From NCBI GenBank assembly GCA_030693065.1, contig JAUYBL010000038.1, forward strand, positions 1 to 64,000: a stretch of 64,000 bases of DNA. Reading direction: 5' to 3'. Numbering within the stretch: the stretch's first letter is position 1; the number at the start of each line of letters is the position of its first letter. This document shows, piece by piece, positions 20,829-33,977 of this stretch. Below the pieces are notes generated by a model. That model saw only the letters and a program-made list of their open reading frames with translations. It was not told the origin of the DNA and searched no databases. Source of the DNA: Methylococcaceae bacterium. Lineage in GTDB: Bacteria; Pseudomonadota; Gammaproteobacteria; Methylococcales; Methylomonadaceae. Both the position numbers and the translations under genes were made by a program.

Positions 20829-20874
20829 TGGTGGCGATAGGTGGATTTGAACCACCGACCCCGGGGTTATGAAT
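20829..20874 (-). repeat. att site: 46-bp copy of the tRNA-Met 3' end
   Basis: The 46 bases are identical to positions 33901-33946, which form the tRNA 3' half from the anticodon loop to CCA. The base on each side differs, fixing the repeat length. This is the distal attachment site left by integrase-mediated recombination. Confidence 0.93.
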
Positions 20875-20911
20875 GCTAGATTTACAAGCCCGAGACTACC
20901 TGCTTAGCTTC

Positions 20912-21033
20912 GAAACACGCTGAAACTCTCCATAGTTTCAATAGGATAGCATAAAAGACCCCGTGGCCAATAAATTTCAGCGTGTTTCAAATAAGCTTGG
21001 TTTTGTTTCACGTGGTGCCCTATAAAGTGCCCT
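20912..21033. other. Putative integrase arm-type sites, distal end
   Basis: GGTGCCCTATAAAGTGCCCT (21014-21033) is a tandem GTGCCCT pair that recurs with one change at 33813-33832, inside the opposite end of the element. TTCAGCGTGTTT (20976-20987) recurs exactly at 33844-33855 and also appears inverted as AAACACGCTGAAA (20913-20925). Repeats placed inside both attachment sites are typical arm-binding sites for tyrosine integrases or excisionases. Confidence 0.6.
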
Positions 21034-21093
21034 CTGTCTCTATAAAACCCCGCGGTCTGAGTTTAAATTTAACGATTGCGTTTTTGCCTAAAA

Positions 21094-21108
21094 TAACCAA
21101 TTAGGTTA
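21094..21108 (+). promoter_or_regulatory. MqsA-type operator
   Basis: TAACC-AATTA-GGTTA lies 10 bases before the mqsR start. It matches the AACC/GGTT palindrome bound by MqsA in the known mqsRA system, so the module is probably autorepressed. No clear ribosome-binding site precedes mqsR. Confidence 0.6.
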
Positions 21109-21118
21109 ATATTGCTAC

Positions 21119-21415
21119 ATGGAAAAGCAAACTCCCCATTGCAAGCTATCGGTTGTCAAAACCATGATCTCAGCCGGAAAAGTGAGAACGACCCGGACAG
21201 CCAGAGAAGGCGCAACGGCATTGGGGTTTGATTTTGACGGCATGCTTACCGTTGTAATGGCGCTCACTCAGGCCGACTTCTATAAAAGCATGACAACCCA
21301 TGCAGACCATAGAGTTTGGCAGGATGTTTACCGTCCAATGACTTCAACAGGTGAAGTTTATTTAAAACTCACTGTCGTTGATGATGTCCTCATCGTATCG
21401 TTTAAGGAACTGTGA
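21119..21415 (+). CDS. mqsR: MqsR toxin (GCU-specific mRNA interferase family)
   Basis: The 98 residues match the MqsR family over the full length. MEKQTPHCKLSVVKTMISAG at the start, LGFDFDGMLTVVMALTQADFYKSM in the middle and TGEVYLKLTVVDDVLIVSFKEL at the end closely track the E. coli protein. MqsR is an mRNA interferase of the RelE fold. It precedes its antitoxin, as usual for this pair. This is the only rightward operon in the integrative element and lies at its distal end, where an addiction module would stabilise the element. Confidence 0.95.
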   Translation: MEKQTPHCKLSVVKTMISAGKVRTTRTAREGATALGFDFDGMLTVVMALTQADFYKSMTTHADHRVWQDVYRPMTSTGEVYLKLTVVDDVLIVSFKEL

Positions 21416-21417
21416 TT

Positions 21418-21819
21418 ATGAAATGCCCATCCTGTGCGACGGCCGAATTGATGCATGACACCCGCGACATGCCCTACACCTACAAAGGTGAATCAACCAT
21501 CATCCCGGATGTAACTGGCGATTTTTGCCCAGCCTGCGATGAAGTGATCACTAATGCGGAAGAATCAAAACGAACAATGGCGCTGATGCTTGAGTTTAAC
21601 AAACAGGTCAACGCCTCGATTGTCGACCCCAGCTTTATAGCCAGTGTTCGCAAAAAACTGGCACTTGACCAACGGGAAGCCTCTGAAATTTTCGGCGGCG
21701 GCATCAATGCATTTTCACGATATGAGAATGGCAAAACCAAACCGCCTTTGGCATTGGTGAAACTGCTTAAGGTTTTAGATCGTCATCCTGATTTGCTGGA
21801 TGAAGTGAGAGCGGCCTAA
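21418..21819 (+). CDS. mqsA: MqsA antitoxin (zinc ribbon plus XRE helix-turn-helix)
   Basis: The N-terminal zinc-binding domain has two pairs of cysteines (MKCPSC and DFCPAC). The C-terminal helix-turn-helix reads VRKKLALDQREASEIFGGGI, then NAFSRYENGKTKPP, the hallmark of MqsA. The ATG at 21418 follows the mqsR stop by 2 bases. A GTG 6 bases earlier overlaps the stop but would add residues the family lacks. A strong hairpin terminator follows the gene. Confidence 0.94.
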   Translation: MKCPSCATAELMHDTRDMPYTYKGESTIIPDVTGDFCPACDEVITNAEESKRTMALMLEFNKQVNASIVDPSFIASVRKKLALDQREASEIFGGGINAFSRYENGKTKPPLALVKLLKVLDRHPDLLDEVRAA

Positions 21820-21851
21820 TCTCTCAAGATTAGGCTAGATATTTTAGGCAA

Positions 21852-21879
21852 TAATAAACCCGCCGAAGCGGGTTTATTA
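21852..21879. terminator. Terminator hairpin between mqsA and the tape-measure gene
   Basis: TAATAAACCCGC-CGAA-GCGGGTTTATTA is a perfect 12-bp stem with a CGAA tetraloop. It lies between convergent genes, and its A/T-rich ends could serve as a terminator on both strands. Confidence 0.8.
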
Positions 21880-21906
21880 GTTATAAGGCTTCTAAGCAAT
21901 AGACTA

Positions 21907-23547
21907 TTAAGCCACCAGCGGCCCGCCAATTGTGCGATAACCAACGTTTTGCGAAGCTCGCACAGGCCCGCGCGTTTGTGCCGGCGCCACTCGCATACCT
22001 GCGGGCGAATTGTCGAAGCTGACTTTCACCTCAACACTGCCCCGATCACGACTGAGTATGCTGCCTTGCTTTTGGAAGCCGGGCGGTCTCATGCCGTTGG
22101 CTTGGGTTTTGTCGGCTTCATCAAAAAACCCGCTCAAGCTGGGCGCAAGATTCTTTATCGACTCTAAGCTAGTTTCAAAAAAGTTGATAAAGACATTAAA
22201 TTTGTCAGTAATCCAGTTAATGGACGTCTCGAAGCTGGATTTTATGTGGCCGGTGATTTTATCCCAATTCTCATAGATAAGCGGGGCGGTAATAAGCAAG
22301 CCCTGAATTAACAGCATCCAAGGATTTAATTTCATGGTGCCGTTAAGTATTTTTATCGCGGTACTGGCAAAGCCGACGGCCTTGGTTAAAGCCAACATGC
22401 CCACTTTCATCAATACCACGCCACCCGCAAGTAAAATTGCCGCTTTAACAGCTGTGGGATTTTGCACTATAAAATCAGTTAAGCCAGCCGCCAAATTATT
22501 AATGCTGTCCAAAGCAGACTTTAGTTGTGGTGCGTAAGTATTGGCAAACACGGCCATTGTGCCTTGAAATGTTCCCGTAGCAGAATCCAAAATATTTGTC
22601 AGCGTGCCAAGCGATTGTTGAACACGCTGATTAAGGTCACCTTGCTCCTTAAATTTGTTAACCATATCGGCATAGCCACCACTAGCAATTATCATTGCCT
22701 TAGATGCGTGCTCTTTGCCGAACAATTTCTCAAACGTAGCGATAAGTTTGGTCGGGTTGAGTTTATTCATTTTCTCAAGGTTTTTGACAAGATCCTCAAC
22801 TGAGGTGAATTTACCCGCTGACGCCGCCTCCGAGATCAAAGTGCGAAGCCCGGTACCCGCTTCACTTGGATCAACCCCGGCTTGCGTCAATAAGGCAACA
22901 AGCGGAGCCATTGCATTAGCTACGCCTAAGCCTTGCTGACGTAACGCCTTCAAAGGCCCACCAGCTTTAGACATTGCCGAAGTAAAGTCGCCAATGCTAA
23001 CGCCAACATTAACGACGCGCTGCATGGTATCGGCAAGACCTACAAAATCACTATTTGCTACTCCAAAGACATTGCTTATCTTTGCAATACCAACCGCGGC
23101 CGTTTGATAGGTTTCACCTAGGTCTTTAGTGGCAACACCCAAATAGGCAGCCGCCTTTAGGCCGTCATTAATTAGCGTATTGGTGCCAATACTATTGGCC
23201 TTCATGGTTGTCGCCATGTTTTGAAAGTCTGCCGTTGAGCCTGGTAGTTTGTTACCCAGTTCGGTGACTATTTTGTTGAGTTTTTCAAATCCCGGTGATA
23301 ACCCATCCTTGGTCATCAAGGTGTTTTTGAGTTGGACAGAGGCGCTTTCCATATCCATAAAGGCCTTGGCTGGAAATGCCAACGCAGCAGTAAAGCCCGC
23401 AGCCAGTGGTATGGCGCCACGACCTACGCCTGTTGATCGAAGTTGCCGTTTAAAGATCTCGATATTCTTGCCAATACCCTTTAAGACCGGAGAAATTCGA
23501 TCAACCGCCATCAGCACTGCCTTTAATTTAAAATTGTTTGATGACAT
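21907..23547 (-). CDS. Phage tail tape-measure-like protein
   Basis: The N-terminal half of this 546-residue protein matches the TP901-type tape-measure core: AFMDMESASVQLKNTLMTKDG, GNKLPGSTADFQNMATTM, VGIAKISNVFGV and KAGGPLKALRQQGLGVANAM. Hydrophobic stretches follow near residues 360-420 (AAILLAGGVVLMKVGMLAL), as in other tape measures. The protein is short for a siphophage tape measure. It would span the tail lumen and set tail length. The start overlaps the stop of the upstream 106-aa gene (TAATG). No tail tube, chaperone or baseplate gene accompanies it, which is odd for an ordinary prophage. Confidence 0.88.
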   Translation of the reverse strand: MSSNNFKLKAVLMAVDRISPVLKGIGKNIEIFKRQLRSTGVGRGAIPLAAGFTAALAFPAKAFMDMESASVQLKNTLMTKDGLSPGFEKLNKIVTELGNKLPGSTADFQNMATTMKANSIGTNTLINDGLKAAAYLGVATKDLGETYQTAAVGIAKISNVFGVANSDFVGLADTMQRVVNVGVSIGDFTSAMSKAGGPLKALRQQGLGVANAMAPLVALLTQAGVDPSEAGTGLRTLISEAASAGKFTSVEDLVKNLEKMNKLNPTKLIATFEKLFGKEHASKAMIIASGGYADMVNKFKEQGDLNQRVQQSLGTLTNILDSATGTFQGTMAVFANTYAPQLKSALDSINNLAAGLTDFIVQNPTAVKAAILLAGGVVLMKVGMLALTKAVGFASTAIKILNGTMKLNPWMLLIQGLLITAPLIYENWDKITGHIKSSFETSINWITDKFNVFINFFETSLESIKNLAPSLSGFFDEADKTQANGMRPPGFQKQGSILSRDRGSVEVKVSFDNSPAGMRVAPAQTRGPVRASQNVGYRTIGGPLVA

Positions 23548-23867
23548 TATTGGGGCTCCTGATAAAGACCGCTAAAACGGTCATGTTGAGTTTGAAACCA
23601 AGGTGGGTTTTCACCCGTTGCAGACTTAAAGTAAAACTGCCCCTTGTCTTTAAAAAACTGGACCACCCAAAACTTAATATCAGGGTGGTAGGATTGAAGC
23701 GTTTTTTTAGTCTCAGCGGCATCGGCCAGTTTTTTGGCTGAAACGCTGTTTAAAATACCTTTTTCAAAACCGGCATCGAGAACCAACCCCTCTGGTTCTT
23801 TTTTGATCCCATACCGAGATAAAAAGTGACCCTCAGACGTGGCGACGGTATAGCCTAAACTTTTCAT
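23547..23867 (-). CDS. Hypothetical phage-type protein, 106 aa
   Basis: Soluble and unrecognised. It starts MKSLGYTVATSEGHFLSRYG; the C-terminal half (DIKFWVVQFFKDKGQFYFKS, PPWFQTQHDRFSGLYQE) is aromatic. It is translationally coupled to the tape-measure gene (TAATG overlap), so it may be a tail-assembly partner. Confidence 0.65.
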   Translation of the reverse strand: MKSLGYTVATSEGHFLSRYGIKKEPEGLVLDAGFEKGILNSVSAKKLADAAETKKTLQSYHPDIKFWVVQFFKDKGQFYFKSATGENPPWFQTQHDRFSGLYQEPQ

Positions 23868-23926
23868 AATTTCTCCTTAATGCAGAATGGCCAGCGGCCC
23901 GGAAAGGCCACTGGCTGTGTTTACGA

Positions 23927-24085
23927 TTAATCAGGTTTTCTGACGATGACCGGGGAGTCAATTGATAACTCACTTTCAATACTTTGACCGGGAGAGAGTA
24001 AGAATGCTGGATTTACTCCTTCTTCAATTTCCGCGTTTTCACCAGAAATATTAGTAATGATTATTTTGATTTTTAAATTGCTCAC
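23927..24085 (-). CDS. Small beta-module protein, 52 aa (GTG start)
   Basis: Translation from GTG 24085 gives VSNLKIKIIITNISGENAEI, continuing to SPGQSIESELSIDSPVIVRK. A ribosome-binding sequence GAGG lies 9 bases upstream. The C-terminal half repeats the module found twice in the adjacent 101-aa protein (SPEQSLELEIELDTPVIIRG and KAGKTIELEVDLMSSIIVRE). The two genes are thus paralogous. The function is unknown. Confidence 0.6.
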   Translation of the reverse strand: MSNLKIKIIITNISGENAEIEEGVNPAFLLSPGQSIESELSIDSPVIVRKPD

Positions 24086-24130
24086 TTGTTTTTCCTCATA
24101 TTTGGATTAAAAAATTTAGTGTTTGCTGTT

Positions 24131-24436
24131 TTAAGCAGCGGCCTGCTCCCGAACAATAATTGAAGACATTAAGTCCACCTCTAATTCGATAGTTTTACCT
24201 GCTTTTAATGCGATGACGGGGCTTGTGCCACGCTCAATTTCTGCCAGTAGCTTAGATTTGTTTTCAATGACGACGTTATTTGAAGCTTCCGTGTACCCTC
24301 GAATAATAACCGGCGTATCGAGTTCTATTTCCAACTCCAGTGACTGCTCCGGTGACAGTGTGGTGGCTGTTTTGTAGCCGTGCTCGATGCAGACTACAGA
24401 TGCTGACAGGCCGGTGTTTTTAATATCGATTTTCAT
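24131..24436 (-). CDS. Hypothetical protein with duplicated beta module, 101 aa
   Basis: Two copies of a ~45-residue unit end in strands LEIELDTPVIIRG and LEVDLMSSIIVRE. The neighbouring 52-aa protein carries a third copy. Beta-rich, small and acidic, it could be a virion decoration or assembly protein in the tape-measure cluster. I do not recognise a family. Confidence 0.65.
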   Translation of the reverse strand: MKIDIKNTGLSASVVCIEHGYKTATTLSPEQSLELEIELDTPVIIRGYTEASNNVVIENKSKLLAEIERGTSPVIALKAGKTIELEVDLMSSIIVREQAAA

Positions 24437-24528
24437 AGTTAACTCATGGTTGGTTAAAACGATTTATGAAGTTGAGTCAGGGACATTGCTTGGCCCGTTT
24501 CTCAGCGCTGTTTAAAATGTGCAGGCGA

Positions 24529-25260
24529 TCAGTCCTGAAACCTGAGAACCGCATCGCCATCCTTTTGCGGGGCTTTGACGTTATCTAATTTGTCGAGTGT
24601 TGGCGGGTGCATTTTCAATTTTGCCAATGGCGCTCTCAATGTGTCGCTTAAGCCCCGCAAGTTTTGGGTTACCTCGGTATAGGTGGCGGCAGATAATTGC
24701 AGGTCATTTAAAGCCGTCACCGCATTGTTAAGGTTGTCGGTAGCCGATATAACATCATCGATATTCGAACGTTGGATAGTACCCTGGACCCCATTTACCC
24801 ATGTACCGTCATGATCAAACCAATACTCCTCCTTAACCCGGACTCGACCCAGGAGGTTATTGATCTCAAAGCGGTATTCAGCAATCCTATGATCAGCACC
24901 GGCGGCAAGTTCGCGTTCTATTGCTCTTTCACGTCCTTGCATTTGCTGATCAAGGCCACTAGCCTCCATCCAAGCCATATTGCGGCCTGCTTTAGCCGCG
25001 TAGAATTCCGCTTCTGCCAAATCGAACCGTTTAACGGCGGCAACCGCTGCTCTTTCCGCTAACGCTTTGGCTTTGGTGAACTGCGCAGGGAGCCCTTTCA
25101 GTTCCTGGATAAGGGTTTTACGCGCTGTAATTCGCTCGATTTCGTCGGCATTGACTACCGCCTGCACTTCCGGGCGGTTTAATATCCGATCGAACTCGGC
25201 CCGGTCTGCTTTAGGCAACTTCAGCCCTTTAAATAGTTTGTTGATAACGGCGTTACTCAT
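24529..25260 (-). CDS. Hypothetical phage-type protein with long helices, 243 aa
   Basis: Residues 1-120 are helical and Ala-rich with coiled-coil character (KALAERAAVAAVKRFDLAEA, AERELAAGADHRI-like). A short middle section (EEYWFDHDGTWVNGVQG) and another helical segment follow. It belongs to the same leftward cluster as the tape-measure gene. A structural or scaffolding role is possible but not shown by any motif. Confidence 0.6.
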   Translation of the reverse strand: MSNAVINKLFKGLKLPKADRAEFDRILNRPEVQAVVNADEIERITARKTLIQELKGLPAQFTKAKALAERAAVAAVKRFDLAEAEFYAAKAGRNMAWMEASGLDQQMQGRERAIERELAAGADHRIAEYRFEINNLLGRVRVKEEYWFDHDGTWVNGVQGTIQRSNIDDVISATDNLNNAVTALNDLQLSAATYTEVTQNLRGLSDTLRAPLAKLKMHPPTLDKLDNVKAPQKDGDAVLRFQD

Positions 25261-25416
25261 AGAAGATCCTAGATGGGTGGAAAAAATGCGCTCTAGCAGA
25301 ATTACCAGTGTGTCGCTTTGATGATTATGTTAACGGGGGGGAAATTCCCCCGGAAGGTATTTTTTTAAATAAGAAAAACCAGTAAAAACAAGACCTCTGG
25401 CCGGGGGAGTGGTTTT

Positions 25417-26028
25417 TTATTGGGGCCCCCCGGTCACATTTACTAACCCCCCATTTTTACTCCGACCGGTAATTCCTTTCAGTGCGTCTTTTTTGATAGT
25501 CTCCCAATGTAGGAACTTTCCTTGCGGCCCTCTGATTTCTCGACGAGCCAGTTCGCCCTCTACATGCTGTGCAATTTTTACTATGGAAGGGTTTTTGCCA
25601 GTTTTTGACTCCTGTTCTTCCATCCACTTTTCACCAATCTCCCGGGCGGTAGCTATCCAGGGGTGCGGCTTTGGTGACTCATCTACCAGGTGTTTTATTG
25701 ACGGGGTCTGGTTGCTGACCTGCGCGGATTCGGCCGCTTCGACATTTCCCCACGGCCAATCAGTAGAGATAAAACATAAACCGGCCTTTTCCCATTGCAA
25801 CAACTCTGCCCGAAGACGTGAGAGCCTTTCTTCTTTGCGCTCAAATTGACCAAAGTCCAACACAGGCAATGGTTTGATATGGGAAATCTGATTTTCAACA
25901 TATCGCCATTCCAGAACGGCGCGTTCTTTTAGTTGTTCAAGTGCCAGCCGCCGATCATCCCAAGTCATCTTAGCAAGATCCAACGGGGCGCAAGGGAAGT
26001 AGGGTTGTTCAAAATCTTCATTGGTCAT
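25417..26028 (-). CDS. Putative DNA-binding protein, about 203 aa
   Basis: I chose ATG 26028, which has a good AGAGGA ribosome-binding site; an earlier start would add 31 unlikely residues. The N-terminal half is helical with acidic and aromatic content (MTWDDRRLALEQLKERAVLE). The C-terminal part, NPSIVKIAQHVEGELARREI, then FLHWETIKKDALKGITGR, looks like a helix-turn-helix segment seen in small prophage regulators. It lies between the replication genes and the morphogenetic-type genes, a position suited to a late-gene regulator. The family is not identified. Confidence 0.55.
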   Translation of the reverse strand: MTNEDFEQPYFPCAPLDLAKMTWDDRRLALEQLKERAVLEWRYVENQISHIKPLPVLDFGQFERKEERLSRLRAELLQWEKAGLCFISTDWPWGNVEAAESAQVSNQTPSIKHLVDESPKPHPWIATAREIGEKWMEEQESKTGKNPSIVKIAQHVEGELARREIRGPQGKFLHWETIKKDALKGITGRSKNGGLVNVTGGPQ

Positions 26029-26400
26029 GATTCGATTCCTCTGTAGTGGGTTTTGTTTGTAAATATGAGTTGTGGTGAAATTAAAAACTTGGATCAACCG
26101 GAGAAACTGCAAGGTGTTCAATCATCGGCCCCATACCAAGAAAGCCAATTGATAACCACTACAGTGGGCTTTTTGTATTCAAAAAATCCTCAATAAAAAT
26201 TTAGCTAGCTGACGGGTCAGGGGCGTTAAGGTCCGAAGGATTTCACCCCCATAGGGGTATCCATGTGGTTTTTGTATTTGTAGAAACATGCCCAACAAAA
26301 ATTTATCGGGCTATCCGATCATGAGGAAAGTGAACCATGAAACTACCAACACTAACCTCATATTGGGGTATACCCCCCTCCCGAAATTCCCGCGCCTGCA

Positions 26401-26516
26401 CGTAAGTAATTGCAATCGGTCTAGGAGGCAATCGGTTTAGGGATTTTGCCCCCCCCCCCTACCCCCATCAGGAATTTCCCGCGCCCAAACGTAAGTAATT
26501 GCAATCGGTCTAGGAG
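26401..26516. repeat. Iteron-like direct repeats in a gene-free region
   Basis: Two exact 27-bp copies (CGTAAGTAATTGCAATCGGT, then CTAGGAG) start at 26401 and 26490, 89 bases apart, each preceded by CCCGCGCC. GCAATCGGT also occurs at 26428 and at 29223, beside the primase gene. An 11-C run (26449-26459) lies between the copies. The ~780-bp gene-free region 26029-26808 has no other gene-like content; near 26690-26800 it holds scattered AACTTTCC/GGAAGTTT words. The repeats flank the primase-helicase genes and could be a replication origin. Confidence 0.5.
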
Positions 26517-26808
26517 TGTTACACCACAAAACCTATTCACATTGGTCATGAAGAGATATGGCGTGGCATTGTGGACAGTATGTAAGTTGCTTTTGATCAT
26601 GGCTTCATCATCATAAATATATTTATTTACTCCGGAAATTAGGGGATATGGTAAATTAGTTTTAAATCAATAAGTTACGCCGGTAACTTTGCAGGAAAAT
26701 AGCAGGAAGTTTGGTTTTAGCAATCCATTTAAAAAACAAACTTACCGCCTAAGTTTCCGCTAACTTTCCAGCTGTAAGCCTTGGTAACTCTCTAACTTCC
26801 TATATTCC

Positions 26809-28242
26809 CTAATTTCCCTTTATGGTCTTAAGCGGTTTGCTAACCCAGAACACCGATGACCCACGCCCTGGTTTTCCATCTGACCTTGCTAACTGTTCCT
26901 GACGGATTAAAGGTGGCGCAGAATTCAATAGATGATTCAGCACGCCGGTAACTTGTGGGCCGGTCATCCGATGTTTGAATGCAGTTGTTATCACTGATCG
27001 AGGACAGCGTGGGTTCTGGCTAATAAACTCCAACACCTCGGCAGCGGTATCATTCAATCGCTTAGCCTCAGCTTTGGCGCTCAAAGTCTGGAAAATGTAA
27101 CTGACCGAATCCCTCCAGTAATTAACCCAAGCCAGCGCCGCACGGATATGTTGTGGCTCGATCACCGATCGACGGTCCAGTAAAGCGAATATCATCGCAA
27201 ACATCCGGCAATAGATTTCCACCCGCACCAGTAATGAACCGGTAATACCCGGTTGCTCAGCGGTTAGCGCTGGATATTCGGCAGTCCATAGGGTATCAGC
27301 GGCTTGTGTGTGCGCCATCCACTTGCTGTTTGTGGCAGTGAGACTCACCCCAATAGCAACCCTTAGCGATTCAGCCACTTGTGAAGCCAGGCGATCAATA
27401 TCCTCCTTTGGCGTTGGCTTAGGTAAAGGGACCAGCTTGGCGCGGACAATATGTAAAATAACAAATCGATTCAAAAAACCCGACTGTGCATCCACATCGG
27501 TCATACGGTCGATCAATTCAGAAGCGGTGATGTGCCCAACAGTAACCACATGCGGCTTTGACGCGCACCAGACAGCATTTTTCACCAAAGGAGAAATATC
27601 CTTGCCATCCCAGCAGGTGCGTATTGTTGCGCTAAGCGTGTTCTTCTCACGTGAGGCCGCTGCCATAGCCCCGGCAAACTCAGCCTCTACAACCAACATA
27701 CGCTTGTCTTCGGTTCCGCCAGTATCGTCGTCATCCATTTTGTCGCGTATTGCCCAGCCCAAGCCCTCGCCGGTACTAAGGCCACCTTCGTGGCGCTTCA
27801 TACGTGGATAGTCATCGACTGTAATTTGCTCAACTGCGTCGAAGATCCTGCGAACCGTGAACTCACTGGTTCCTTTGCGGGCCTTACCAGTACGACCGAC
27901 CAGCAGAATGAAAGGCCGAGCGTGGCACACGCCATCGCCAATATGCTGAAAAGGCCCACGGCCCACCATCGCACTAAACGTCGCAAGAAAATTGGCCGCC
28001 ACGGCCACAGGTGATGCCTCAGAGGTTCGACAAGCCACTTTCACCACATCATACAAAATGCCGTGATAGGCCTCTTTGGCCAGCGTGGGTGGTGGGTTTA
28101 ATAGATCGTCTTTATCGTTTTTATCGGCCTCACTGGGCATAGGCGGCACCATATCGTTAGCCGTCGCCAATTGGCCTTCGATCATCGCTTTAGCGGCTGG
28201 CAATCCCTGGGCGACATGAACATCATTCCAATCCGGCATCAT
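26809..28242 (-). CDS. DUF3987-type helicase/ATPase-like replication protein
   Basis: About 477 residues from ATG 28242, which overlaps the primase stop (ATGA) after a GAGGTGG ribosome-binding sequence. It shows the DUF3987 pattern: ANFLATFSAMVGRGPF, a phosphate-loop-like LLVGRTGKARKGTSEFTV, a Walker-B-like MLVVEAEFAGAM, and HVVTVGHITASELI, followed by QSGFLNRFVILHI. The C-terminal region is winged-helix-like. The P-loop departs from the strict GxxxxGK[ST] form. Proteins of this kind accompany Toprim primases in satellites, prophages and plasmids and probably unwind DNA at the element's origin. Confidence 0.8.
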   Translation of the reverse strand: MMPDWNDVHVAQGLPAAKAMIEGQLATANDMVPPMPSEADKNDKDDLLNPPPTLAKEAYHGILYDVVKVACRTSEASPVAVAANFLATFSAMVGRGPFQHIGDGVCHARPFILLVGRTGKARKGTSEFTVRRIFDAVEQITVDDYPRMKRHEGGLSTGEGLGWAIRDKMDDDDTGGTEDKRMLVVEAEFAGAMAAASREKNTLSATIRTCWDGKDISPLVKNAVWCASKPHVVTVGHITASELIDRMTDVDAQSGFLNRFVILHIVRAKLVPLPKPTPKEDIDRLASQVAESLRVAIGVSLTATNSKWMAHTQAADTLWTAEYPALTAEQPGITGSLLVRVEIYCRMFAMIFALLDRRSVIEPQHIRAALAWVNYWRDSVSYIFQTLSAKAEAKRLNDTAAEVLEFISQNPRCPRSVITTAFKHRMTGPQVTGVLNHLLNSAPPLIRQEQLARSDGKPGRGSSVFWVSKPLKTIKGN

Positions 28243-29102
28243 GCGGCCACCTCGCGCGGAGGAAATACCGCTCGACCACCAACAGCGCACGCGGCAGCAA
28301 TTGCCTTAGCACGCCCTGGATTTTGTGGATTGTCCAGGTCATCGTCACCAAAAATGATGATTTTTGCTTGCGGGTGCTTGGAGCGAATGGCCGGGGCTAC
28401 CGGCTCCAGGTTCCCAGCATCGAAAGCCACAAAAACCGGCATTTGCCCGGCCATGTGACAAGAAATAGCCGTCGCATAGCCCTCCGCTACACCGACAAAC
28501 CCAGTTGGATCAACAACTTCGCCAATCGGACAACAACGGCCTTTTTTGGCTGTGCCGGTCAAAAACCGCTTATTGCCATCTGCATCAATAAACTGTAATC
28601 CATGCAACTTACCGTCCAGGTCCAACACCGGCAGCACTAAGCTACCACGCGAAAAACGGACACCTAGGCAGGCAACCCGCTTTCGTTGGGCGTATTTACT
28701 ATGGCCTTCAGTATTGCAGCCACTCCAGATCTTCAACGCCTTATCGGCCGCTTGCTGCAACTCTGCCAGACGTTCCTGATCAGCCAGGCGCCGTTTTTCT
28801 GCCTGCTCCCGGTCAAACCTTACCCGATCTGCTTGAGATAAGGACACACCGGCCTTAACGTCGAGACTGAATTCAAACGACTCGGCACCGACAAACCAGC
28901 CGAAGGCGCCTGCGGCCATGGTCTCCCCATTATCCAAGCGAAACGGATAAACGACATACCAGGCGCGCTTTTTACTCTTGACCGGCTCCCAGTCAGGTCG
29001 AAACCTGTGCAAGCTACCATCTGCCACCAACTCAACAGATGTCAACCCTGTTAAGCCTGTATTCGCCATCTGCTCTATTACAAACTGTCTAACATCAATC
29101 AT
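28239..29102 (-). CDS. Toprim-domain primase
   Basis: The 287 residues comprise an N-terminal substrate-like region (HRFRPDWEPVKSKKRAWYVV), a coiled linker, and a catalytic core with GRCCPIGEVV, the Toprim Glu in VAEGYATAISCHM, and the Asp cluster IIIFGDDDLDNPQNPGR. There is no N-terminal zinc finger. It makes RNA or DNA primers for element replication. It is the first gene of a coupled pair with the DUF3987-type protein. The closely related arrangement in PICIs and plasmids supports autonomous replication after excision. Confidence 0.85.
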   Translation of the reverse strand: MIDVRQFVIEQMANTGLTGLTSVELVADGSLHRFRPDWEPVKSKKRAWYVVYPFRLDNGETMAAGAFGWFVGAESFEFSLDVKAGVSLSQADRVRFDREQAEKRRLADQERLAELQQAADKALKIWSGCNTEGHSKYAQRKRVACLGVRFSRGSLVLPVLDLDGKLHGLQFIDADGNKRFLTGTAKKGRCCPIGEVVDPTGFVGVAEGYATAISCHMAGQMPVFVAFDAGNLEPVAPAIRSKHPQAKIIIFGDDDLDNPQNPGRAKAIAAACAVGGRAVFPPREVAA

Positions 29103-29359
29103 TACCCAGACCTCTTAAACCAGCGTGTGATGAAGGATATTTTGCGATACAAAATACACCGCCCACATAAGCCATCTTGAAGCTGATGAATGCTTGAGTG
29201 ACACCCACAGGCGCTACAATTTGCAATCGGTTGGGGTATTTTTTTGTAAAAATTGGAAATATTCATTTTGTCAAAATCCTAAAAATTATCATTTGCCATC
29301 GGTCCGACTCACCGCCAATCCAAGCGGCATGCTGATTGAGTCGATTTGATTGAAAAAAA

Positions 29360-29596
29360 TTAGGCTTTTTGACTGGCAAACCACTGTGTAAACAGCGGCT
29401 CGTTGATATAGAACTTCCGAGCTGACAAGATCACCGCGCCAGACTCTGACAGGCCATTGCGCTCACGATTGCGCATGAACCAAGTTAATTGACCGGGTGT
29501 GAATTTGTCCGCGTGTTTTTTTTGGAAGTTGTCCAGCGATTCAATTTGGTCAAGCGCGGGGGCTTGTGGCTGGGTTTGATTTTGGCTTGTTTGCAT
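29360..29596 (-). CDS. AlpA-like small regulator, about 78 aa
   Basis: ATG 29596 follows GGAGA at correct spacing; an in-frame ATG 6 codons upstream is less likely. The C-terminal part, LTWFMRNRERNGLSESGAVI followed by FYINEPLFTQWFASQKA, has the pattern of AlpA/excisionase-type winged helices, and the N-terminus is Gln-rich and disordered. It precedes the primase gene, where AlpA-like activators sit in satellites. It may control excision and replication. Confidence 0.6.
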   Translation of the reverse strand: MQTSQNQTQPQAPALDQIESLDNFQKKHADKFTPGQLTWFMRNRERNGLSESGAVILSARKFYINEPLFTQWFASQKA

Positions 29597-29792
29597 GTGA
29601 CTATCTCCGTTCATAAGTAAACACGCGGGTTTCAGTGCGTGTGAAGAAACTATGAACGAGCTAGCGTCTTTCTTAAAGTAACATTTAGGAAAGATTATTG
29701 GCGTTAAAACCGTTTTATCTTTCCTTTTAATAACAATAAGTTGTCGTCTTGTCTTCTAATAAACACGACAACCTTACTCATTTTCAGCGGCA

Positions 29793-30788
29793 CTAGCTGC
29801 CGTTTTTTTTGCGGGTGTCTCGGGTAAAAAAACCCCAATCCTTATCGATGTAATTTGACGGCTTTTTATCCCCGTAGGGATACAAAGCCTCCGTAAACTC
29901 CCTAAAACTTCGACTGGACAGCTTAAACAGTTCCTCAGGTAAGCTACCACAACCAATCCAATAACGCAGTTCATCGGCAAAAAGTCGTAAAAAATCGCCA
30001 GCCGAGCGCTTAGATGAAAATCTTCTAACGTCATCACAAGAGCTAACAACCATCCGGCCATAGGCCAGGAGTAATGAATCAAAGCTCGGCATTGGGTGCT
30101 CATTCCAATCATCATTCAACAAAGGCAGCAGCTGTTCCTCAATGGACTCGGTGTAGTAACAACTAGGATCACGAGTAGGATTTGAAGGCATAGCTTCGGG
30201 CCCGTTCATCTTGGCAATAAAGTCGCGTATTTCTTGCGTCCTCAAGAAGTCCTGCACATACGTTTTGTTGTGAATATCAGCCGCATCTCGAAGCAGGCCG
30301 GGATAAACCAATTTACTTGGCGGTAATTGCTCATCCGATCCGGTATAATTTTCGAGTTCTTGAATCAATGCCGCCATCGCAATGGTTTTTTCAAAAATTT
30401 CTTGGCGGATAGTTTTCTCACGCTTGTTGCGCTCCACTATTTTTTCAGCAGCAAGACCATCACGCCCCGCATGGTGCAGTAAATAAGCAAAACCATGCCA
30501 TCTTCGACACAATTCAGCCTCACCCTGTACGCCAAGGCCGGATGACAAAAGCAGTCCGTCGACCTCAATAAGTGCCCGCTTAAGCGTGTGTTTTTTTAAG
30601 AGGAAGTTGGCAGCGACGCTTTTAAATTCGGGTGCAGGATTAATTGGATGAAAAATCAGCCATAACCAATAAGGCAGGCCCTCATCATCAAGCCAGCGAA
30701 TAAGGCCATGCTCCTCTTGGTCAAATTTATCAAACCTGGATTTAAATAAAGCCCTAAGGGCATCATCATCAATAGCAGTCACAAACAA
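29793..30788 (-). CDS. Hypothetical protein, 331 aa, satellite cargo candidate
   Basis: No known family is evident. The protein appears mostly helical with many aromatic and acidic residues (GLPYWLWLIFHPINPAPEF, WHGFAYLLHHAGRDGLAAEK). It has no nucleotide-binding or nuclease motif I can point to. It stands alone between the AlpA-like regulator and the HigBA module, a region where satellites often carry interference or defence cargo; this is only a positional hint. Confidence 0.6.
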   Translation of the reverse strand: MFVTAIDDDALRALFKSRFDKFDQEEHGLIRWLDDEGLPYWLWLIFHPINPAPEFKSVAANFLLKKHTLKRALIEVDGLLLSSGLGVQGEAELCRRWHGFAYLLHHAGRDGLAAEKIVERNKREKTIRQEIFEKTIAMAALIQELENYTGSDEQLPPSKLVYPGLLRDAADIHNKTYVQDFLRTQEIRDFIAKMNGPEAMPSNPTRDPSCYYTESIEEQLLPLLNDDWNEHPMPSFDSLLLAYGRMVVSSCDDVRRFSSKRSAGDFLRLFADELRYWIGCGSLPEELFKLSSRSFREFTEALYPYGDKKPSNYIDKDWGFFTRDTRKKNGS

Positions 30789-30920
30789 CGCCTCTCAAGT
30801 GCCGCGCGGATGAGAATCCGCTTTTCGCTCCGTCGAGCTAGGCTTGGTTAATTCATGCTGTTCGTTGCCGATCAGCTTGCGTCATCCGGATTGATTCCGG
30901 ACTGTCTTAAACTTTGAACA

Positions 30921-30957
30921 GCTTCATCAAGATCAAATACAGTTGTCTTGATGAAGC
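30921..30957. terminator. 12-bp perfect hairpin after higA
   Basis: GCTTCATCAAGA and TCTTGATGAAGC pair across a 13-base loop, one base beyond the end of the leftward higA gene. There is no U-tract on the minus strand, so it may stabilise mRNA or act as a factor-dependent terminator. Confidence 0.55.
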
Positions 30958-30958
30958 A

Positions 30959-31258
30959 TTAGGCCACTTTCGGTGGTCTCTCAATTGGTTTGACTTCGGG
31001 CCTAGGCTTTTGCCTAGCCTGCCATAAATCATATTCGGCTTGCATGCGCACCCAGCTTTCGGCGGTGGGGCCGTTCATCCAGGCTTCCAAACGAATCGCC
31101 ATATCGGCACTGATAGCCGCTCGACCGTTGATAACACGCGACAACGCCACGCGCGACACACCAAGCTGAGCGGCGGCTTCGGTGACGCCGATACCCAGCT
31201 CGGGTAATACATCGTCTTTCAAGAGGCTGCCGGGGTGAGGAGGGTTAAACATAGCCAT
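30959..31258 (-). CDS. higA: HigA antitoxin (second HigBA module)
   Basis: The 99-residue protein begins MAMFNPPHPGSLLKDDVLPE, the standard HigA/VapI-like start. A helix-turn-helix follows (VTEAAAQLGVSRVALSRVINGRAAIS), then DMAIRLEAWMNGPTAESWVR. It lies 12 bases after its toxin gene in toxin-first order. It is close in type to I. HigA proteins of Enterobacteria and unrelated in detail to the XRE antitoxin of the first module. Confidence 0.93.
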   Translation of the reverse strand: MAMFNPPHPGSLLKDDVLPELGIGVTEAAAQLGVSRVALSRVINGRAAISADMAIRLEAWMNGPTAESWVRMQAEYDLWQARQKPRPEVKPIERPPKVA

Positions 31259-31270
31259 TTTATTTACCTG

Positions 31271-31549
31271 CTAGTGATAGTCTTGGTAATCGACCAGAAT
31301 GGAGTCTTCACCTTCGAACCTGAAGGTAAGACGCCAGTTACCGTTGACTCTGACCGCCCAATGTTCGGCCAAGTCGCCTTTGAGTGGATGGAGTTTCCAA
31401 CCAACGACAGCCATTTCTTGCGGATCTTTGGCGGCATTGAGCAACATCAATTGCCGGGCCAGTTTTGGCGCGTGCTCTGCTGCAATGCCGCCTTTAGATC
31501 CGGTTTCAAAAAACTGCTGAATGCCTTTGTGACGGAAACTCTTTATCAT
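31271..31549 (-). CDS. higB: HigB toxin (second HigBA module)
   Basis: A typical HigB/RelE-type ribosome-dependent RNase of 92 residues: FRHKGIQQFFETGSKGGIAA, followed by MAVVGWKLHPLKGDLAEHW and VRVNGNWRLTFRFEGEDSILVDYQDYH. The final segment carries the conserved basic and His/Tyr residues. It lies inside the integrative element and probably stabilises it. Confidence 0.93.
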   Translation of the reverse strand: MIKSFRHKGIQQFFETGSKGGIAAEHAPKLARQLMLLNAAKDPQEMAVVGWKLHPLKGDLAEHWAVRVNGNWRLTFRFEGEDSILVDYQDYH

Positions 31550-31608
31550 AGTTAAGTGTATCGTTATGCTTTACGCGTTACAAGCGGGTTATTGCAAGCC
31601 AACTCCAA

Positions 31609-31836
31609 TCAGTTCATTTCACTGTCTTCAATCAAATCCATTAATTGTCTTGCTGTTGAATTGGCCCCACCAGACAGCGCCGCAAAAACAAAGCGATCTT
31701 TGATTTCGACATCTTTCCAAAACCGCTCGGTAAGCAGCTGCGTTAGTTCTATGATGGTGTTCAGTTGTTTATAGGCTTCTGCCTTTGCTTCTGATAATTT
31801 TGATTCGCTTATTGTGTTTTCATCTGACATTGACAT
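31609..31836 (-). CDS. Hypothetical protein, 75 aa
   Basis: Acidic and helical (SEAKAEAYKQLNTIIELTQLLTE), with a conserved-looking ALSGGANSTARQLMDLIED end. It sits between the HigBA module and another small gene in the leftward cluster next to the integrase. Not recognised. Confidence 0.55.
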   Translation of the reverse strand: MSMSDENTISESKLSEAKAEAYKQLNTIIELTQLLTERFWKDVEIKDRFVFAALSGGANSTARQLMDLIEDSEMN

Positions 31837-31871
31837 GGTATTTCTCCAAATAATAATTAATTTATGATGGA

Positions 31872-32144
31872 TTATTGATCGATACTGCTTGTGGCCGCTG
31901 CCCGCGCACCTATACCATCCAGCTCTTCTTTGTAATGCTCAACCAATGCTAACGCGTCCAGTATTTCGTAGCCGATCGACTCGACGGCGGCAGAAACATT
32001 AACCAAATCCATTAGCTCTTCATCAGCCAGCGTTTTAAGCATGCTAGCAAGCGCTTGAGCACGTATCAAAGCCCCCTCAAGAGCAGGGGCAAAGCCTAAA
32101 CAATGAGTTCTATGATCAAATATATTCTGAGTGATTTTTTTCAT
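31872..32144 (-). CDS. Hypothetical protein, 90 aa
   Basis: Residues 15-75 form Ala/Leu-rich helices (ALEGALIRAQALASMLKTLA), a pattern seen in small DUF3077-like accessory proteins, though I cannot assign it firmly. The start lies 2 bases before the integrase stop on the other side, so it is likely co-transcribed with the integrase. Confidence 0.55.
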   Translation of the reverse strand: MKKITQNIFDHRTHCLGFAPALEGALIRAQALASMLKTLADEELMDLVNVSAAVESIGYEILDALALVEHYKEELDGIGARAAATSSIDQ

Positions 32145-32146
32145 GA

Positions 32147-33220
32147 TTATCTCCTACCTGGTTGAATAGCTGCAGTCATGACTTTATCCACCAAGCGTGA
32201 TTTATGGTCGGTTGATAAGTGGCTGTAACGCATAGTGGTTTGGGCGCAGCGATGACCCAACACCTGCCCCACTTCATATAAGCTGGCTCCGCCCATCGCT
32301 AATAGGCTGGCGGCAGTGTGCCGTAAGTCATGCCAACGAAAATTTTCAATGCCGGCATCGGCCATTGCTTTAAACCAATGTTTTTTAAACTCAAAGGGTT
32401 TTTCAGAATCAGTGGTGCTGGGAAACAATAAGCTGTTGCCGATTCGCCGCATTGGCCGTAATTGGACCATGACAAAATCTGGAATAGGACAGTTACGCGC
32501 TTCGCCGTTTTTGGTATCGGCCAAAAAGGCCAGGTTGCGGTCGAAATCCATATCAGACCAACGCAACCCCATTAGTTCCGATTTCCGCATACCCGAGGTC
32601 ATGGCCATCAAAACCAGTAACCGTAAATGTCGCCATTCGGACACCTCACAAGCTTTTAATAAGCTTTCGCGCTCGAAATCTTTGAGATAACGAGTGCGTT
32701 GGTTGCTGACTTTGCGCGCAGGTACTTTGTTGACCGGGTTTTGTGTAACGATGCCTTCACCCATGGCATATTTGAACACCGCACTCAGTACCGCCCTTAG
32801 CCGATTGACAGTTGCCGGACTGCGAGTTTTTTTCAGTTGTTGGGTTTTACCTCTACCATCGCCACGGAGGCATTGACCAGACTCAAACGCTTTTAACTCT
32901 CTCCGAATCATGTCGGCGTTAATGTCGATAAGCCTGTAATGTCCAAAGCAATCGCTCCAATAAGCCGCACGGGGTAACTGCCTGGGACACTTTCCAGACC
33001 ATTGCGCGGCATATTCATTGACCAGTTCGGAAAACTTTAAACCGGCACCACGCGACCCCAACGCCTCAATGGCGTCTTGATCGGCTTCAATGCGCTTTGC
33101 CCAAGCAACGGCATCGGTCTTACGGTCAAACGTTTTGGACTTGAGGGCAACGCCCCGTTGTTTGATTATCGCCTTATAGACGACGCCTGACTGGCGTACG
33201 ATTTTGCGGATGGTGGCCAT
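32147..33220 (-). CDS. int: Tyrosine recombinase (phage-type integrase)
   Basis: A complete integrase with 357 residues: an N-terminal arm-binding domain (FDRKTDAVAWAKRIEADQDA), a core-binding domain and a C-terminal catalytic domain. The catalytic residues are visible: Arg 212 (TSGMRKSELMGLRW), His 297 and Arg 300 (HDLRHTAAS), the GH pair of VLGHRC, and Tyr 332 (TTMRYSHLS). It begins 1 base into the stop of the upstream zinc-finger-like gene (TAATG). It lies beside the intact tRNA-Met and its att core and should catalyse integration and excision of the 13.1-kb element. Confidence 0.96.
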   Translation of the reverse strand: MATIRKIVRQSGVVYKAIIKQRGVALKSKTFDRKTDAVAWAKRIEADQDAIEALGSRGAGLKFSELVNEYAAQWSGKCPRQLPRAAYWSDCFGHYRLIDINADMIRRELKAFESGQCLRGDGRGKTQQLKKTRSPATVNRLRAVLSAVFKYAMGEGIVTQNPVNKVPARKVSNQRTRYLKDFERESLLKACEVSEWRHLRLLVLMAMTSGMRKSELMGLRWSDMDFDRNLAFLADTKNGEARNCPIPDFVMVQLRPMRRIGNSLLFPSTTDSEKPFEFKKHWFKAMADAGIENFRWHDLRHTAASLLAMGGASLYEVGQVLGHRCAQTTMRYSHLSTDHKSRLVDKVMTAAIQPGRR

Positions 33221-33756
33221 TATGCAGCCCTCTCTTCTGAGTAATCCTCCCGAAATTGCGGCAAGGAATACCCCAAAAGACCGGCAGCCCGGGCGACATG
33301 GGGAAGCTCTTCTCGTGGCGGTGTCGGTAATTTGAGTAGATTAACTAACAGGCGACGGCTAAGATCAAGGTCATCTATCATCTCTTGTCGATTTTCATCG
33401 TCGCAATCAATAGATTCTTCATTGAAGTCAACCACCCCCTCCCATAACTGGTAACCATTTTCCGACGCCATGCCAAAAAATCCGGCAAATTGCCGAGCTT
33501 CTCCAGGCGTAGAGAATTTAGGCGATGCAGGTTGGCGGCTCCGCCAGTCCATCAGGTAAAAAATAGGAATGTCGCCGTGACCTTGGCTTTTACCACAGGT
33601 GTGGCAAACCCAAAAAAGGCAATTGGAAAGGGCTGTTCGAACTAATTCAGTGGCCGAGCCACAATGTGCGCAGTTCTGATGAGGATCGGTGGGTTGGAGT
33701 TTTAAGCAGGTATCAGCGGAGGATGCTGAAAGATTTTCTTGAAATAATGAAGTCAT
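33220..33756 (-). CDS. Small protein with a CxxC zinc-ribbon-like motif
   Basis: ATG 33756, with an AGAGG ribosome-binding sequence, is preferred over a GTG 10 codons earlier. Two CxxC pairs (NCAHCGSA and VCHTCGK, about 20 residues apart) form a zinc-ribbon-like site. The C-terminal region is acidic and helical (IDCDDENRQEMIDDLDLSRR) and ends in a helix-turn-helix-like stretch (VARAAGLLGYSLPQFREDY). It is the first gene of the integrase operon, translationally coupled to it, and may regulate it. Confidence 0.65.
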   Translation of the reverse strand: MTSLFQENLSASSADTCLKLQPTDPHQNCAHCGSATELVRTALSNCLFWVCHTCGKSQGHGDIPIFYLMDWRSRQPASPKFSTPGEARQFAGFFGMASENGYQLWEGVVDFNEESIDCDDENRQEMIDDLDLSRRLLVNLLKLPTPPREELPHVARAAGLLGYSLPQFREDYSEERAA

Positions 33757-33812
33757 GATTACAGCCTCTGATTGAGCACGGGGCACGTTAAGTACCCATT
33801 GAAAAATTCACA

Positions 33813-33855
33813 GGTGCCCTATAAGGTGCCCTGTGTCGTATTTTTCAGCGTGTTT
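33813..33855. other. Putative integrase arm-type sites, tRNA-proximal end
   Basis: GGTGCCCTATAAGGTGCCCT (33813-33832) and TTCAGCGTGTTT (33844-33855) repeat, in the same orientation, the sequences found inside the distal end. They lie between the integrase operon's start and the attachment core, as expected for arm-binding sites. Confidence 0.6.
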
Positions 33856-33900
33856 AACCGATAGCGTTTGATTAAAAATCCTTTTTAATCAAGGTCTTAC

Positions 33901-33977
33901 TGGTGGCGATAGGTGGATTTGAACCACCGACCCCGGGGTTATGAATCCCGTGCTCTAACCAACTGAGCTATATCGCC
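33901..33977 (-). tRNA. tRNA-Met (CAT), elongator type
   Basis: The 77 bases fold into a full cloverleaf. Acceptor GGCGATA pairs with TATCGCC, followed by ACCA. The D-arm is GCTC/GAGC, the T-arm GGTGG/CCACC with loop TTCAAAT, and the anticodon loop TTCATAA gives CAT. The anticodon stem CGGGA/CCCCG has one A-C mismatch at its loop end. A lysidine-modified tRNA-Ile2 cannot be excluded from the sequence alone. Its 3' 46 bases are the attachment core of the integrative element, so the present 3' half was supplied by the element. Confidence 0.93.

Follow-up and report, generated by a model that had tools for sequence, protein, structure and literature searches.

A tRNA-Met-integrated element of a Methylococcaceae bacterium carries a lone tail tape measure gene and may be a phage satellite

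The tail tape measure protein (TMP) of a helper phage can be replaced by that of its satellite, as has been reported for the phage-inducible chromosomal island (PICI)-like elements (PLEs) of Vibrio. Virions of PLE11 contain PLE11's own TMP and hub instead of those of the helper ICP1, and deletion of tmp lowers transduction by approximately 99.9% in PLE11, 99% in PLE4 and 96% in PLE1 (PMC12987554). The PLE TMP is only 20% identical to that of the helper, the PLE11 and ICP1 proteins differ by 95 aa in length, and the tails of PLEs are shorter by about 10 nm (PMC12987554). Putative tmp genes are also listed for PLE-like elements and some capsid-forming PICIs (cf-PICIs) in the legend of Extended Data Fig. 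10 of this work (PMC12987554). While this 2026 study showed the TMP swap in helper tails, it left its frequency and purpose open.

Here we describe an integrated element in a stretch of 64,000 nucleotides of a Methylococcaceae genome ("the window"; GCA_030693065.1, contig JAUYBL010000038.1, positions 1 to 64,000) that encodes a TMP as its only recognised virion protein. TMP genes beside which no other tail gene is recognised occur at 11 loci in eight genomes of one order, the Methylococcales, on backbones with tRNA-targeting integrases and primases, and they appear to go back to at least three captures. We lean towards the view that the window element is a phage satellite and contributes a TMP of its own to tails built from helper parts.

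Element borders and the tape measure gene

The element is delimited by perfect 46-bp direct repeats at 20829-20874 and 33901-33946, whose spacing of 13,072 bp gives a size of about 13.07 kb. The proximal att site lies within the predicted tRNA-Met gene (CAT; 33901-33977, minus strand) and the distal one is a copy of the tRNA's 3' end. With these repeats, the tRNA target and a tyrosine integrase (32147-33220, minus strand; PF00589, 2.5e-27), it is an integrated mobile element with a tRNA-targeting tyrosine recombinase. A first-pass annotation had described a tRNA-Met element of about 13.1 kb with integrase, primase, two toxin-antitoxin pairs and a TMP, all of which we confirm. Its statement that capsid, terminase, portal and tail tube genes are absent was borne out as well: 17 genes were assigned to the element, with families taken from Pfam, PHROGs and in part NCBIfam, and all but the TMP (16 of 17) lacked a head, packaging, portal or tail match in Pfam or PHROGs at E <= 0.1.

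The TMP gene (21907-23547, minus strand) is a single intact open frame of 546 codons that matches PF10145 (2.7e-12) and TIGR01760 (1.2e-26), both above cut-off, and phrog_28 (1.8e-51). The closest phage TMPs align over 97-98% of the protein, and the gene is a full-length phage TMP. The TMP of SfV is 27% identical to it over 98% of its length; those of a prophage (L073) and of the IMG/VR contigs L168-L173 are 40-45% identical. Together with its counterparts on other satellite-like elements, the window's protein probably forms one group within the TMPs of contractile phages of the Mu/SfV type (98/99 support when every row is included). This group, which we call window-type, differs from phage TMPs most clearly at residues 361-440, where its members resemble each other at 0.51-0.58 and phage TMPs at 0.31-0.33, so that a part of the C-terminal half seems to have diverged as a block.

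According to the first-pass annotation, the TMP might change the length of the tail. For the window's type this did not hold up: of the seven satellite proteins, five, including three near copies, measure 546-549 aa and the remaining two 566 and 687 aa, compared to 509-568 aa in the six complete phage cousins. As the satellite lengths largely match those of the phages, a new tail length is not expected for this type. In three distinct copies from sister elements, the ratio of non-synonymous to synonymous substitution rates (dN/dS) was 0.09-0.18 for the TMP and 0.17-0.20 for the gene preceding it, values that indicate that the TMP of the sister elements is under purifying selection.

This preceding gene (23547-23867, minus strand) encodes 106 aa and overlaps the TMP start by one base. 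Among the 311 genomes of the order, seven contain homologues of approximately 105 aa that are 30-57% identical to the window's copy; they occupy eight places, all directly upstream of a window-type TMP. A class-wide sample of 339 genomes yielded the window's own copy and none in the other 338, no homologue was confirmed in IMG/VR, and none was found among the open reading frames (ORFs) of the scanned prophage loci. Contractile phages hold their tail assembly chaperone at the same position, although kinship to one is not detectable. The structural model (predicted local distance difference test, pLDDT, 74.8) combines strands and helices. We consider this TMP partner a candidate selectivity factor, either as a satellite tail chaperone or as a blocker of the helper's TMP.

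Recurrence of lone tape measure genes

A PF10145 search of the order gave 70 match rows in 55 of the 311 genomes. We examined 54 rows with their flanks; one more lay within a protein already fetched and 15 were left out. Some fetched rows (G673, G595) are apparently other proteins, as judged by eye. This search replaced an earlier one with a single protein in 101 genomes, which had returned the window's TMP only and was too insensitive. Since the marker scan overlooks many siphophage tail genes, absence of a marker alone was not counted as a lone TMP, and loci were judged in addition from the first residues of their ORFs. On this basis the TMP is the only recognised tail gene at 11 loci of eight genomes: the window, a second element in the same genome, L055, L056, L057 (which starts at a contig end), L058, L062, L069, L074, L093 and L099. 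In contrast, a GTDB-wide scan gave 41 TMP loci, of which 38 contained at least one other tail gene; the three exceptions (L114, L116, L117) coincide with L062, L093 and L055. Likewise, at least one other tail gene accompanied the TMP at 77 of the best 80 of at least 526 IMG/VR loci. By marker scan, the TMP stands alone at the IMG/VR loci L183, L193 and L234.

Elements with an integrase at least 65% identical to the window's were found in five other genomes, giving a family of seven elements including the window's. Five of the seven carry a TMP (the window, G580, G591 and two in G585). Marker scans, in part with single reference proteins, and reading of ORFs recognised no portal, terminase, sheath, tube or baseplate gene in any of them. 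The tRNA-Met relatives were sized at 13,273 bp and 19,903 bp (48-bp att; resolvase and transposase genes, recognised by eye, lie inside the larger) and at 13,097 bp and 8,791 bp. The first-pass annotation had proposed a comparison for fixed gene content and size. A size near 13 kb does recur in two other tRNA-Met elements; the content is not fixed. One G585 copy is distributed over the contig ends L265 and L057, whose connection we deduce, and ends with a 47-of-48 tRNA-Met remnant; for the other, the tRNA is present and the distal repeat was not found. L057 and L058 of this genome have identical TMP and partner codons and capsid genes that differ at about 45 sites, which may stem from a recent exchange or from the assembly.

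The four sister TMP copies are accompanied by genes for a ClpP-type head protease, an HK97-fold capsid protein, a coiled-coil protein and the partner (in L056, phrog_133 with 1.3e-69 for the protease and phrog_10 with 9.4e-38 for the capsid protein). The G586 element (L264) keeps protease and capsid protein and has a 190-aa gene and a toxin-antitoxin-like pair, recognised by eye, in place of partner and TMP (L264:11859-13085). The element of G001, a genome of the window's genus, lacks a TMP and contains pieces that resemble capsid genes by eye but were not recognised in the marker scan. In a 9.0-kb tRNA-Lys cousin (L270:1259-10309; integrase 57% identical), a capsid protein is the only recognised structural gene. 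Given these variable contents, the distal part of the elements is, as far as gene content tells, a slot that takes either individual assembly proteins or cargo.

The second TMP of the window's genome (C34:152852-154591; 579 aa) lies in a satellite-like element of 12.6 kb (L023; G000 C34:145035-157711), hereafter element 2, that adjoins tRNA-Leu and has imperfect repeats 12,637 bp apart. Element 2 encodes a P4-type integrase (5e-70), a P4-alpha-like primase part (6e-28), a second recombinase and the genome's only Ogr/Delta match (1.1e-11); its TMP is the only recognised tail gene and overlaps with its start the end of an 84-aa gene that is regulator-like by eye and has no family match. The two elements have a common primase at 34% identity and a weak similarity of their recombinases, else nothing, and their TMPs come from different phage lineages. 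A single satellite origin of the TMPs of element 2, L069 and L074 was rejected (approximately unbiased test, p-AU 3.4e-7), as was a common origin of those of element 2 and L074 (1.3e-4); for element 2 and L069 it was not rejected (0.27). This second TMP type is therefore not one group and, with phages taken as the source, at least three captures from contractile-phage lineages are indicated overall.

The lengths of the second type give a mixed picture in which shorter tails are possible. The TMP of element 2 is as long as those of L250 and L251 (55 and 52% identity), while L092, a prophage TMP with 64% identity to it across 444 residues, is 956 aa long. The L069 protein has 598 aa compared to 573 aa in L252, and the L074 protein, with 647 aa, is below its nearest relatives L090 (709) and L086 (933). 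A general case against tail shortening based on lengths was thus dropped for this type.

Three further loci are recorded as observations. Directly upstream of the lone TMP in L074 lies a gene for a 246-aa protein with a Psu/Sid PHROG match of 3.5e-6 (L074:8659-9399); BLASTP gave no match to P4 Sid or Psu and none to a phage record, and we regard it as a lead only. In L089 (7671-11331), a portal gene (phrog_21, 1.8e-84) stands beside the TMP, with primase and helicase genes and few other recognised virion genes; borders of this stretch were not found. In L091 (8205-12005), the TMP stands between a preceding coiled-coil protein and a following head maturation protease (phrog_328), again with few other virion genes recognised.

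A proposed satellite with its own tape measure protein and the alternatives

The recurrence of TMPs of contractile-phage descent, the partner linked to them and the purifying selection in sister copies are what inclines us, with some reserve, to a satellite that supplies its TMP to helper-built tails. Excision from tRNA-Met and replication by the element's own primase would be set off when a helper with a contractile tail of the Mu/SfV type infects the cell or is induced. Sheath, tube and baseplate of the helper and the TMP of the satellite, aided by the partner, would then form chimeric tails on satellite particles. Mobilisation by a helper, entry of the TMP into tails and the resulting advantage are steps that we infer; helpers of these elements in general are expected to have contractile tails of the Mu/SfV or P2 type. 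For the window's type, the gain would probably be an escape from TMP-directed blocking, by evading it or pairing with it, or a preferential incorporation, rather than a different tail length. The first-pass annotation had likewise proposed a satellite whose TMP may replace or poison that of the helper, and our comparisons support its satellite and replacement readings. If the hosts are methanotrophs, which named relatives of theirs suggest, the elements would also point to unseen helper phages in methane cycling.

Several observations weigh against this interpretation. The first-pass annotation had suggested looking for a helper prophage with a related TMP, and none was found in the window's genome with the five families tried. 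PF10145 yields only the two satellite TMPs there and no helper TMP, PF03354, PF05065 and PF04860 match nothing (P2- and Mu-type head families were not tried), and the single sheath match lies in what by eye resembles a contractile injection system. We therefore assume a helper from outside this genome. The TMP is also not a fixed core gene, as two of the seven related elements lack it. Support for a single group of window-type TMPs falls to 91/90, unstarred, once long-branch rows are removed, so that this grouping is likely rather than demonstrated. The dN/dS values stem from sister elements and not from the window's own copy. One of the eight partner copies (G511) contains a stop in the matched stretch, the partner's model has no structural match in PDB or BFVD at E <= 0.001, and its assignment as a known tail chaperone was rejected, with neither a Pfam or PHROG match nor a profile link to the chaperone of L073. 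Finally, the contigs that hold L093 (8.3 kb) and L099 (5.4 kb) are short and leave the context of these two loci incomplete.

The injection-system-like locus (L249; G000 C32:83594-91406) comprises the matched sheath and, by eye, a tube and a large protein.

A broader version takes the slot itself as the unit of function: a TMP or a capsid protein, with or without protease, would be swapped on related backbones as the one structural gene, each seeding one end of the virion. The partner would be a new tail factor that favours the satellite TMP over the helper's during tube polymerisation, and the window-type hijack would concern tail identity, not length. We hold this version only tentatively, and the mixed lengths found for the second TMP type led us to rate it lower.

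Somewhat less plausible, in our view, is that the TMP acts as a poison only and, with or without the partner, jams or titrates helper tail assembly in interference or defence and never enters tails of the satellite's own. The TMP is the target of the tail-assembly blockers Tab (PMC10884400) and Rta (PMC12987554), the partner's profile is unrelated to a tail chaperone, and the toxin-antitoxin-like pair that replaces partner and TMP in L264 means that the slot also carries cargo. However, a jamming fragment needs no intact tape, and the TMP has been kept at full length (546-549 aa in five of seven satellites) and under purifying selection in the sisters. The combination of TMP, capsid protease and capsid protein in four sister copies is, moreover, consistent with the building of particles.

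The same blockers could make the extra TMP a decoy or escape factor that absorbs blockers directed at the TMP, whether they come from the host or from rival elements, and rescues the helper, whose survival would benefit the satellite. Action of Tab and Rta via the TMP (PMC10884400, PMC12987554) and the block divergence at residues 361-440 would fit such a role, but a decoy needs no cognate partner gene. We regard it as improbable. Least probable of all is the first-pass annotation's alternative of a reduced prophage that retained its TMP by chance: although the TMP is akin to phage tail genes and no other virion gene is recognised in the element, the att ends are exact and the integrase intact, two other tRNA-Met elements are also about 13 kb in size, in none of the seven related elements was a full head-tail module recognised of which this copy could be a deletion, sister copies show purifying selection on the TMP, lone TMPs recur with unrelated integrases, and the partner gene was not seen in the scanned prophages.

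Remaining genes and comparison with known satellites

Reading from the tRNA, the element begins with a gene for a 188-aa protein with two CxxC pairs (33220-33786; homologues in sister elements), the integrase and two small genes for proteins of 90 aa (31872-32144; no family assigned) and 75 aa (31609-31836; homologue in L058). They are followed by HigBA, i.e. a HigB-like toxin (31271-31549; 1.5e-20) and a HigA-type antitoxin with a helix-turn-helix antitoxin match (30959-31258), a 331-aa gene with homologues in sister elements (29793-30788), an 84-aa gene (29360-29614), a Toprim primase with a P4 alpha-like part (28239-29102; Toprim_3 7.1e-8, above cut-off; P4 alpha 1e-19) and a DUF3987-like helicase/primase C-terminal protein (26809-28290; below cut-off in Pfam, primase/helicase in PHROGs). 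An intergenic stretch of 0.7 kb with direct repeats (26182-26525; two of 57 nt and two of 38 nt), possibly an origin or a crr-like region, separates these from genes for proteins of 234 aa (25417-26121; nearly unique among the searches made), 243 aa (24529-25260) and 101 aa (24131-24436; no family matched), the partner and the TMP. All these genes are on the minus strand. MqsR toxin (21119-21415; 1.8e-36) and MqsA antitoxin (21412-21819; 1.6e-63) follow on the plus strand. Inside the two ends, 25-bp repeats (21014-21038 and 33813-33837; 92% identical) are candidate arm sites for the integrase. The adjoining gene at 15619-20055 encodes a 1478-aa protein with NHL-like and YD/Rhs-like repeats, labelled by eye.

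The 84-aa gene had been called AlpA-like in the first-pass annotation, a label that found no backing: it matches nothing in Pfam, PHROGs or NCBIfam, and PF05930 was seen only in L074 and L062 among the proteins tried. It is conserved in related elements and possibly a regulator. The 243-aa protein is helical in a low-confidence model (pLDDT 61.9) and shares 46% identity with a homologue located at the corresponding position of L093. A role as a Sid/Psu-like capsid factor was rejected, with no link to P4 Sid, the coiled-coil protein of the sister elements or the L074 protein; neither a PDB sequence match better than E 0.1 nor a structural match at E <= 0.001 was found. No defence family was detected at E <= 0.01 in ten uncharacterised proteins, eight of them from the window element.

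P4-like satellites resemble element 2 in its P4-type integrase, Ogr/Delta activator and alpha-type primase part, whereas the window element resembles them in the primase part alone. Among the P4 components, element 2 has integrase, delta-type and alpha-type genes; psu, sid and epsilon were not found in it and alpA is unconfirmed. In the window element psu, sid, delta and epsilon were not recognised by Pfam and PHROG scans and with single P4 sequences, and a TMP is absent from P4's annotated genes. With integrase and alpha-type primase part only, the window element is not P4-like by the published seven-component rule, as far as these scans tell. PICIs have an integrase, an AlpA/Stl-type regulator, a primase, packaging interference and helper induction, of which integrase and primase are present here and the regulator is unconfirmed. 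A cf-PICI has its own capsid and packaging module. As judged by the gene scans, the window element is not a cf-PICI, since capsid, portal and terminase are all unrecognised; in L055-L058, protease and capsid genes are present, while portal and terminase likewise went unrecognised.

Capture of a single phage structural gene that redirects helper assembly is known from Ccm of SaPIbov5 (PMC8569155), and the sister elements L270 and L264, with lone or protease-paired capsid genes, are reminiscent of it. The gene captured there is a capsid protein, however, and not a TMP. The Pseudomonas AH14b satellite is also small and carries a tail assembly protein I that is 71-74% identical to helper copies. 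This is another tail gene and close to the helper's, and a satellite TMP is not mentioned in the accessible part of that report (PMC4936722). Mu/SfV-type contractile phages (SfV, L073, L168-L173) represent the lineage to which the window TMP is related, but there the TMP is surrounded by sheath, tube, chaperone or baseplate genes. Beyond PLEs, PLE-like elements and cf-PICIs, our searches of an open-access library gave no report of satellite TMPs.

The PLEs (PLE1, PLE4, PLE11) are alike in placing a satellite TMP beside small tail genes, and their TMP works together with tail parts of the helper, as we propose for the elements here. A tail assembly chaperone is predicted in PLEs and PLE11 also encodes a hub protein, whereas the small gene linked to the TMP at all eight places here has no sequence or fold match that would identify it as a chaperone. 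The integrase/primase backbone integrated at tRNA genes and the several apparent captures set the present elements further apart, as do the TMP lengths, which for the window's type equal those of phage cousins, so that a change in tail length would not be the whole purpose of a satellite TMP. If the window element resembles a PLE at all, it does so in one respect, the substitution of a helper's tail component by the satellite's own.

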